From assembly GCF_003675855.1 (NCBI RefSeq), contig NZ_RCIH01000004.1:186001-250000 (forward strand): a stretch of DNA of 64,000 nt, written 5' to 3'. The notes beneath the pieces were generated by a model. It had not been told where the DNA came from. It saw nothing but the letters and a program-made list of their open reading frames with translations, and made no database searches. The stretch's first letter is position 1. The number at the start of each line of letters is the position of its first letter. A program made the position numbers and the translations under genes. The stretch is from Halostella salina (GTDB lineage: Archaea > Halobacteriota > Halobacteria > Halobacteriales > Natronoarchaeaceae). This document shows, piece by piece, positions 27,797 through 30,082 of the stretch.

Positions 27797-27979
27797 GTGA
27801 GGTCGTGACGATGTGGAGGAACTTCTAGATACTGCATGATTCTGCCCGGTGCATCGACGTACCGGCGGTCGTTCGGGCCGGGTCGGGGGGCACGGGACCG
27901 ACGGCAGGTGCGTGTCGACGCCGGTCGCGACGGCTCGGTGACGGAACACAAAAATAGCGGGTCGGCGTAGCTCGGGGTG

Positions 27980-28477
27980 ATGACTCTCTCGGAGGAGGCC
28001 CGCGAGCGGCTCGCCGACGTCGTGGAGCTACAGCCCACGAAGAACGCCGAACTGCAGGAGCGGTGGGGGGTCGAGGGAGGGAGCGAGGTCCACTCGTACC
28101 TCGAATCGGAGCTGAAGGAGTACTACTACCGCGACGACAACAGCCTGATCCGGGCGACGGCCGAGGCCGCGGAGCTGGTCGACGTGGAGCCGGGCGTCGA
28201 GGGCGACCCGGACGAGCGCCCGAGCGTGATCCGCGTGCCGGAGCTACAGGCGCAGGTCTTTCAGGTCGTTGCCGGGCCGGACGAACGCTCCGAGAGCGTC
28301 GTGTCGGTGCTGCACAAGCTCCGCGAGGCGTTCGGGATCGACCCCGACACCGACGACGTGCGGTCGGCGCTCCAGAGCCTCCGCCGGAAGGAGGTCGTCG
28401 AGGTGGAGTACCGGACCGTGCCGACGTTCCGGCTGGCGGTCGAGCGCGACACGGTCGACGTCGAGGTCGCCGACTAG
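27980..28477 (+). CDS. Conserved haloarchaeal protein (DUF5797-type), winged-helix-like N-terminus
   Basis: 165 residues from ATG 27980; a GTG three bases upstream is less likely. The N-terminus (LSEEARERLADVVELQPTKNAELQERWGVEGGSEVHSYLE) resembles a winged helix, and a second helical unit (SVVSVLHKLREAFGIDPDTDDVRSALQSLRRKEVVEVEYR) looks like another. A DNA-binding role is possible but unproven. TATA-like AAAAATAG about 27 bases upstream suggests a leaderless mRNA. Confidence 0.78.
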   Translation: MTLSEEARERLADVVELQPTKNAELQERWGVEGGSEVHSYLESELKEYYYRDDNSLIRATAEAAELVDVEPGVEGDPDERPSVIRVPELQAQVFQVVAGPDERSESVVSVLHKLREAFGIDPDTDDVRSALQSLRRKEVVEVEYRTVPTFRLAVERDTVDVEVAD

Positions 28478-28501: not shown

Positions 28502-29545
28502 TCAGGGCCGCCGGCGGTCCCGTCGGTCGGCGAGCAGTTTCTCGATCCGTTTCCCCGGTCCCCCCTCGATCGGCCAGCCCCTGGAGCGCCACGTCGGCGG
28601 CTCCGGCTCGAACGACGGGCAGGAGCCGGCACACTCCGCAGCGGTCTGGCACCGGTCCTTCGCGGCGCACCACGGGAGCAACTGGCCGCCCTCGGACCGG
28701 AGCTGAAAGTGTCGACAGTCGGGGCGCATCGTGTCGACGAAGGAGCGCCAGCCGCGCTCGTAGGCGCGCTCGGCGAGCGCCAGCCGCTTGTCGGCCTTCC
28801 AGTCGGCGTCGACGTACTCGAACCGCGCGGCCGACCGGTCGTACGCCGACCCGGACGGCCGGTCGAGGATGCGCGTGCCCGGCTCCGACGCCGGAAGCGT
28901 CCGGGGGTGCCAGGCGACCGTCGCCTCGGCGGCGTCGGCGTCGACGGTGAGAACGCCCGCCTCTACGGGGAGGTCCTCAAGCAGCACCGGCTCGACGCGG
29001 TCGCCCGTCTCGCGGGTGGCGACCCACACCTCGTCGGCGAGCGCCAGCGCCACGTCGCGCTCCAGTTGCGGGCGGAGCCGTCGGGCCGCGCTCGCGTCGA
29101 GGTCCGGCTTGTTCTCGACGGCGACGACCCGGTTCACCCAGTCCGGGTAGGCCCACCTCCGACGGATCTCGATCCGGTTGCCGTCGCGGCGCGTCTCGAC
29201 GATCCCCCGGTCGGCCGCGCGGTGGACCGCCTCGCGGACGTACCGCCAGGGGTAGCCCGGGTCGGGGAGCGCGTCGCGGTACCACGCCCAGTCCTTGGGA
29301 GCGTTCCGAACCACGTGGAGCAAGTCAGAGTCGAGCCGTTCCGGCCCGAACCGGGAGCGCCGCGCCAGCGCCTCGCGGTCGGATTCGATAACGATCGTGT
29401 CCCAGCGCCGCCGCTCCGTACCGAGCTGGCGCGCGACGAGCGGGACCGTCCCGTCGGCACGCTCGCCGGCCGGGGGCCAGTTGCGCTCGGCCCACCAGCA
29501 GACGCGCAACTCGAAGCCGAACTCCGCGTCGTCACCGGGGATCAC
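28502..29545 (-). CDS. Conserved haloarchaeal protein (DUF5787-type), possible PD-(D/E)XK nuclease with Cys cluster
   Basis: 347 residues. Three parts are visible: a strand WDTIVIESD (about 46-54), an inserted winged-helix-like segment (DLLHVVRNAPKDWAWYRDAL ... GIVETRRDGNRIEIRRRW), and a strand with VAVENKPDLD (about 140). Asp ... Glu-x-Lys in consecutive strands fits the PD-(D/E)XK nuclease core. The C-terminal region carries five Cys within about 30 residues (CRHFQ, CAAKDR, CQTAAE, CAGS, CPSF), as in Fe-S-containing RecB/Cas4-like nucleases. The nuclease reading is inference; I believe the family is catalogued as DUF5787. Confidence 0.75.
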   Translation of the reverse strand: MIPGDDAEFGFELRVCWWAERNWPPAGERADGTVPLVARQLGTERRRWDTIVIESDREALARRSRFGPERLDSDLLHVVRNAPKDWAWYRDALPDPGYPWRYVREAVHRAADRGIVETRRDGNRIEIRRRWAYPDWVNRVVAVENKPDLDASAARRLRPQLERDVALALADEVWVATRETGDRVEPVLLEDLPVEAGVLTVDADAAEATVAWHPRTLPASEPGTRILDRPSGSAYDRSAARFEYVDADWKADKRLALAERAYERGWRSFVDTMRPDCRHFQLRSEGGQLLPWCAAKDRCQTAAECAGSCPSFEPEPPTWRSRGWPIEGGPGKRIEKLLADRRDRRRP

Positions 29546-29641: not shown

Positions 29642-30082
29642 CTACTCGGCGTCGTCCTCCTCAAGCTTCTCGTCCAGGAACTCGTGGGCGTCCTCCAGTA
29701 TCTCGCGGGGGCCGTCCTGCGTGACCGTGTTGACCGCCTGTTCGTAGTCGCGCCACTGGAGGTCGCGGTGCTCGTGTGACAGCTCCGCGCTCGCCTCGTA
29801 GGACCGGGCGATGAACAGGTGCACCGTCTTGTGGATGGTCTTCCCGTTGGCCTCGAACACGTAGTCGTAATCCTTGCGGAAGCCGTCGAGCAGCCTGAAG
29901 TCCTCGATCCCGGCCTCCTCCTGTACCTCCCGTATCGCCGTCTGCTGTAGCTCCTCGTCTCCCTCGACGCCGCCTTTGGGGAACTCCCAGTCCCCGGGGC
30001 GGCTCTTCAGGAGTAGGTACTCGCGCCGTCCGCGCGTATCCCGAAAGAGGATCGCGCCGGCGCTCGTCGCTTCGACCGTCAT
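29642..30082 (-). CDS. NUDIX hydrolase, Ap4A-pyrophosphatase type
   Basis: 146 residues. Complete Nudix box from GGVEGDEELQQTAIREVQEEAGI (about 37-59), preceded by WEFPKG as in bis(5'-nucleosyl)-tetraphosphatases. Predicted to cleave diadenosine polyphosphates or similar signalling or damaged nucleotides. TATA-like TCTTAACA is about 26 bases upstream of ATG 30082. Divergent from the uS10 paralogue. Confidence 0.88.
   Translation of the reverse strand: MTVEATSAGAILFRDTRGRREYLLLKSRPGDWEFPKGGVEGDEELQQTAIREVQEEAGIEDFRLLDGFRKDYDYVFEANGKTIHKTVHLFIARSYEASAELSHEHRDLQWRDYEQAVNTVTQDGPREILEDAHEFLDEKLEEDDAE

Follow-up and report, generated by a model that had tools for sequence, protein, structure and literature searches.

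The DUF5787 gene in the window (the whole stretch of 64,000 nucleotides of Halostella salina DNA that was analysed) is one of two DUF5787 paralogues that haloarchaeal genomes typically hold, a pairing that is new here; we call the window gene A and its partner B. Both proteins are likely to be metal-dependent PD-(D/E)XK-type nucleases carrying an inserted domain, with B being in addition tethered to the sliding clamp. The nuclease identity of the pair is well supported by sequence comparison, and the fold and function are predictions. If this explanation is true, two genes that are near-universal in the haloarchaeal genomes examined, and are presently labelled as unknown, would become candidates for genome maintenance, with Haloferax volcanii as a tractable model. 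The features on which the analysis bears are collected in Table 1.

Table 1. Positions in the window of DUF5787-A, its putative parts and its immediate neighbours
Feature	Position	Strand	Basis
DUF5787 paralogue A, whole ORF	28502..29545	(-)	347 aa, uninterrupted frame, GTG start; PF19100 match; 156 unique A-type homologues
Putative nuclease core, first half (residues 1-60)	29366..29545	(-)	helix with E8, E12, C16; R39-Q40-x-G42; D49
D49 codon, candidate catalytic Asp	29399..29401	(-)	261/261
Inserted unit, winged-helix-like (residues 62-130)	29156..29362	(-)	covariation; Asp-Glu distance compared with sce7726
Putative nuclease core, second half (residues 131-215)	28901..29155	(-)	E144-N-K146, Q160, D164, P193, G197 invariant or nearly so; sce7726 profile match
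Codons E144-N145-K146 (Glu-x-Lys)	29108..29116	(-)	E144 261/261, K146 260/261
C-terminal Cys4 region (residues 250-320; C277, C293, C305, C309)	28586..28798	(-)	four Cys in 260/261
Nudix gene, directly upstream of DUF5787-A	29642..30082	(-)	PF00293
DUF5797 gene, convergent neighbour	27977..28477	(+)	PF19110

Candidate active-site residues and distant relatives of the core

The window protein matched the Pfam family DUF5787 (PF19100) along the whole model, from profile position 1 to 278 of 278, with an E-value of 1.1e-124 and 416 bits against a cut-off of 25. No further Pfam match appeared beside DUF5787 at E up to 1, which sets the protein apart from NucS/EndoMS with its N-terminal OB/Sm-like domain, and the NCBIfam and PADLOC scans of the window protein gave no match. 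Similarly, no Pfam family other than DUF5787 exceeded its cut-off in 21 A1 members.

To judge conservation, we used 261 unique homologues extracted from the fetched loci (156 A-type and 105 B-type). Asp49 and Glu144 were invariant, Lys146 was kept in all sequences except one, and the three residues, which form a candidate catalytic triad, occurred together in 260/261 homologues, in the order (a conserved Asp, then Glu-x-Lys) that is typical of the PD-(D/E)XK motif. The first-pass annotation had picked out the segments WDTIVIESD (residues 48-56) and VAVENKPDL (residues 141-149) as carrying precisely this Asp and this Glu-x-Lys; their invariance, together with the profile link to sce7726 described below, supports that assignment. 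Also present in every A and B sequence were E8, E12, R39, Q40, R46, Y133, W136, N145, P147, Q160, D164, P193, G197, C277, C293 and C309, while C305 was kept in 260/261 sequences and C16 in 254/261. In the arrangement that we envisage, a helix with E8 and E12 would be followed by two strands bringing D49, then by the inserted domain, by a strand with E144-x-K146, by a helix with Q160 and D164 and by a further strand; metal binding and the activation of water would fall to D49, E144 and K146.

Single-sequence NCBIfam scans gave weak matches to the sce7726 family in 6 of 39 homologues (best E 0.0031, 17.4 bits, against a cut-off of 70 bits for NF033832), the window protein itself being unmatched. 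The three placements that we viewed, all in B-type proteins, lay at or just past Glu-x-Lys. When hhalign was used to compare profiles, a mixed set of six sce7726-type sequences, made up of one protein above the family cut-off and five weaker ones, matched the core without the insert at a probability of 70% (p 4e-5), and at 65% with the insert included. Against eight sce7726-type sequences (seven plasmid-borne, one genomic) the core reached 44% (p 2.3e-4). For comparison, fourteen other families, namely Mrr, Hjc, PDDEXK_1 and eleven controls, gave at most 0.7% with the core and at most 1.5% with the whole protein, and the eight-sequence sce7726 profile itself matched none of Mrr, Hjc and PDDEXK_1. 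Eight loci with short flanks (one Mrr, four Hjc, one PDDEXK_1 and two sce7726) were left out of the profile sets, with L308 being restored, and the weak hits L315 (sce7726) and L364-L365 (Hjc) likewise lay outside them.

The alignment of the core with sce7726 runs from Glu-x-Lys through an RL..QL helix and the strand after it to the invariant P193-x3-G197. It scored 33.3, as compared with a mean of 13.7 for column shuffles, and one of 150 shuffles (an outlier, 137) was higher. In maximum-accuracy alignments D49 fell opposite the Asp of both sce7726 and the f17 family (see below), in a stretch that carries almost no confidence. The sce7726 family shares with DUF5787 the succession of Asp, Glu-x-Lys, RL..Q helix, following strand and P-x3-G; it differs in having no insert between Asp and Glu, whereas DUF5787 has an added Cys4 region. 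Judged from these profiles, DUF5787 is a distant relative of the sce7726 family and not a member of it, and the predicted PD-(D/E)XK link rests on the motifs and on this relative, itself recognised here by its motif. A gene annotated as sce7725 came next after sce7726 for 4 of the 7 plasmid genes fetched, and was found in no DUF5787 locus examined.

A second possible cousin is a protein family from four f17 genomes of the same phylum (L310, L311, L313 and L314), whose members have some 285-300 residues and no Pfam match over the cut-off. Along these proteins an Asp motif comes first, then a middle part with Cys, then Glu-x-Lys and finally a tail that closes with Q-x-x-L/F. With hhalign, this f17 family reached 80% against sce7726. 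Against DUF5787 the hhalign probability alone was 4-10%, and the score was 23.8, a value that none of 200 shuffles (mean 13.2) attained. As in DUF5787, residues intervene between the Asp motif and Glu-x-Lys (122 in L313); unlike in DUF5787, this segment bears Cys, and its kinship to the DUF5787 insert is not evident. A search of 196 genomes found proteins of this type in the four f17 genomes, with one additional partial match, and no relatives turned up in phages when these were searched with the f17 protein.

Sequence searches against solved structures yielded no match for the window protein, and values at chance level for the family profile (one match, E 0.28), for an sce7726 protein (best E 0.4) and for an f17 protein (best E 0.88).

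The segment between Asp49 and Glu144

The Asp and the Glu lie 12 positions apart in 8/8 sce7726 sequences, as against 95 in the window protein, so that DUF5787 has the look of a PD-(D/E)XK nuclease interrupted by an inserted segment. The length of the intervening segment is nearly fixed within each paralogue, with 94 residues in 145/156 A-type sequences and 89 or 90 in 94/105 of the B-type.

We analysed covariation in the 261 sequences, which amount to about 135 effective ones at 80% identity, using subfamily-specific fields. With segment limits that were chosen after the motifs, the strand order of the model and the coupling list had been seen, so that the enrichment is not blind, 10 of the top 50 couplings fell inside residues 62-130 (2.5 expected), a count reached in 0/246 circular label shifts; at the top 30 and the top 120, 53 and 27 of the 246 shifts attained the corresponding enrichment. 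Under the same limits, 6 of the 30 strongest couplings joined the flanks on either side of the insert, residues 31-57 with 134-181 (0.5 expected; 0/246 shifts). This agrees with residues 62-130 forming a separate unit within DUF5787.

As to the nature of this unit, the couplings 116-127, 118-125, 89-99 and 72-109 are consistent with helices and a wing. AlphaFold2, run on seven sequences (the window protein with six of its close relatives), gave models with a mean pLDDT of 37.3 for the full protein and 35.3 for residues 1-222, both unusable, and a Foldseek search with the full-length low-pLDDT model found no match at E <=0.001. Since both models are poor, their secondary-structure order is a hint only. 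In the full one we could read a helix at 5-22, two strands (33-40 and 49-56), four helices within 57-112, three more strands (115-121, 124-129 and 137-145), a helix at 151-168 and a strand at 175-178. The order fits an alpha-beta-beta-beta-alpha-beta core, in models with mean pLDDT below 40. The winged-helix elements would be the helices 73-80, 84-92 and 100-112 and the strands 115-121 and 124-129; the equally low-confidence model of residues 1-222 has one helix fewer in the insert. A single weak PaaX match (E 0.24) lies within the insert, at residues 98-121 of L067, and hhalign with the insert alone or with the C-terminal region alone gave no match, the best value being 5% (insert against DUF5797).

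Of the earlier proposal that a winged-helix-like segment sits between the two strands, the inserted unit is supported by the sce7726 distance and by covariation, and its identity as a winged helix is only suggested by the low-confidence models, the hairpin couplings and the weak PaaX match. Such a domain would presumably grip nucleic acid next to the active site. A PD-(D/E)XK active site split by a binding domain would, if true, provide a useful structural case.

The couplings in the core speak less clearly, the comparison standard being the textbook strand order of the PD-(D/E)XK core. Coupling 139-172 is as expected for strands 3 and 4, whereas the high-ranking couplings of residues 36-40 with 136-140 and of 48-52 with 170-174 do not join neighbours in the textbook order; overall, the couplings pack the core halves together without reproducing that order. 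This, along with the lack of a usable structure model and the fact that 25 alignment columns are equally invariant among the 261 homologues, would suit a different fold, in which D49 and E144-x-K146 were structural only and the resemblance to sce7726 had arisen by chance. We regard this as very unlikely, given how far the scores against sce7726 and f17 stand above their shuffle means, and given that the sce7726 match spans consecutive elements from Glu-x-Lys and the RL..QL helix to the next strand and P-x3-G.

The C-terminal cysteines

The window protein has Cys at positions 16, 277, 293, 299, 305 and 309. The first-pass annotation counted five Cys within about 30 residues near the C-terminus; five do lie within 33 residues, but four of them are conserved and the fifth, Cys299, is not, being found in 42/156 A-type and 0/105 B-type sequences. 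Cys277, Cys293, Cys305 and Cys309 are all present in 260/261 homologues, one B-type sequence having an alignment gap at Cys305. The spacing is C-x14-16(19)-C-x11-C-x3-C in the A-type and, in nearly all B-type sequences, C-x12-16 (up to 27)-C-x11/12-C-x3-C. Either zinc or an Fe-S cluster would suit this pattern, and the four-Cys region may bind one of them as a structural metal site.

The same annotation had been reminded of Fe-S-containing RecB/Cas4-like nucleases. In a nuclease of the Cas4/AddB/Dna2 kind, the Cys would hold a [4Fe-4S] cluster stapling the nuclease core. Cas4 has one Cys before the core and several after it, in the arrangement CxxC-x5-C, and the DUF5787 proteins broadly resemble it in combining a nuclease-type motif with several Cys, namely Cys16 of the first helix and the four that follow the core. 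The spacing, however, is mostly C-x12-16-C-x11/12-C-x3-C and not that of Cas4, the four C-terminal Cys complete a site on their own, C16 is replaced by Ser or Ala in 7/261 sequences, and similarity to the RecB/Cas4-type profile PDDEXK_1 (PF12705) stayed at background (hhalign probability about 0.1%). Kinship to this group is therefore not supported, and we consider a Cas4-like Fe-S nuclease quite improbable.

Weak matches to DUF7140, a 42-position profile, occurred in 5 of 39 members (best E 0.0013), all below the cut-off, and nothing was drawn from them; the three placements viewed covered about 21 residues each, two of them in or near the Cys region.

Two paralogues, their distribution and their neighbourhoods

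B-type sequences share 31-37% identity with the window protein. In a midpoint-rooted FastTree phylogeny of the untrimmed alignment, A and B formed two clades, the 105 B sequences with a support of 1.0 and the 156 A sequences with 0.61. The two types also differ at the C-terminus, where a QxxhxxA box (PIP regex Q..h..a) was found in 104/105 B-type and 0/156 A-type sequences; the regex background was 35/2237 ORFs, a count that takes in copies of B. The one copy of B without the regex, L217, comes from a genome of family f44 that is 76% complete, and its end may be wrong or damaged.

A typical B-type protein ends in RRQ(S/A)GLDRF(G). The FEN1 tails of the window genome and its relatives read QTGLDRWT or similar, and matched the PIP regex, in the true frame, in 20/20 loci (21 genomes were searched, one of which gave no FEN1 match). 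In H. volcanii the PIP box is given as QxxLxxFx, and PolB1, PolD, RFC-B, Fen1 and RNase H2 are the predicted PCNA partners, in the excerpts of PMC7776575, which name no protein of the DUF5787 kind among these partners. From its FEN1-like C-terminal box, copy B is most likely a PCNA client, with clamp tethering as the predicted consequence, and this box would place its work at the sliding clamp, during replication or repair. Copy A, having no PIP box, may act on DNA independently of the clamp. If true, B would add a nuclease to the likely PCNA partners. The f17 proteins have a short tail, Q-x-x-L/F, that is like a cut-down PIP box; of the individual tails RQKTLF, KQSRLF, RQSTLKF and RQKTFDD, three resemble a shortened PIP box.

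DUF5787 matches were present in 383/392 genomes of the window's order, and in 343/345 of those with completeness >=90% and contamination <=5%; most of the positive genomes show two matches. The nine genomes lacking a match fall in families f6, f38 and f41, and a profile search of these nine and of the four f17 genomes, run without a positive control, returned nothing. Across 392 genomes drawn from the phylum, 81 had matches, 80 of them above the cut-off. The ORF behind the below-cut-off match (G227) reads as a methionyl-tRNA synthetase, i.e., a chance match, and a match in G134 was an unrelated ORF outside the family. Two scans of viral contigs revealed no DUF5787 relatives, and the plasmid collection held one matching record, an 828-kb replicon of Natronorubrum bangense. 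Within the data searched, the family is thus specific to haloarchaea, as had been surmised; yet it consists of two paralogues and not of a single nuclease.

DUF5787 was not mentioned in the literature searched, although the print record may still hold something. Searches for comparable nucleases from haloarchaea, or linked to PCNA, brought up only work on RecJ3/4-aRNase J (PMC10470531) and on CoCoNuTs (PMC11090510). We tentatively propose that A and B constitute an undescribed, near-lineage-wide nuclease pair, B clamp-tethered and A untethered, with active sites split by a nucleic-acid-binding domain and a job in replication or repair such as the processing of flaps, ends or branched DNA; a role this specific is possible, though we would not presume it. 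The idea that DUF5787 stands in for a missing NurA was dropped, as NurA matches occur in 76/79 genomes of the order. These PF09376 matches (e.g., G000:C1:490352-491266) extend to H. volcanii, one of the controls, and contrast with the statement, in the excerpts of PMC7776575, that HerA and NurA are absent from that species.

In 20 B loci we found a beta-lactamase-fold gene 17 times and an eIF2-gamma homologue 15 times, all on the opposite strand, as well as a PIN protein (14) and an Rpb7/RpoE-type protein (13). This proximity to translation and transcription genes, and an insert that looks like a binding unit, could point to a PD-(D/E)XK fold acting on RNA, or to a regulator that mainly binds nucleic acid, by a winged helix and a zinc site, and in which the nuclease-like residues were kept. 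Mere binding would not demand, however, that D49, E144 and K146 be retained together almost without exception, and the FEN1-like PIP box of B points to DNA; hence we deem an RNA-directed or regulatory role unlikely and favor DNA nucleases for both copies.

Around A, the Nudix gene was found in 17/20 loci, always upstream and on the same strand, with a median gap of 181 bases and fewer than 300 in 11/17, which suggests that it may be co-transcribed with DUF5787-A. In Natronorubrum bangense the corresponding gene carries the annotation bis(5'-nucleosyl)-tetraphosphatase. The gene for DUF5797, another uncharacterised protein, occurred in 18/20 A loci, on the opposite strand in 18/18, and an S10-domain gene was present in 17/20.
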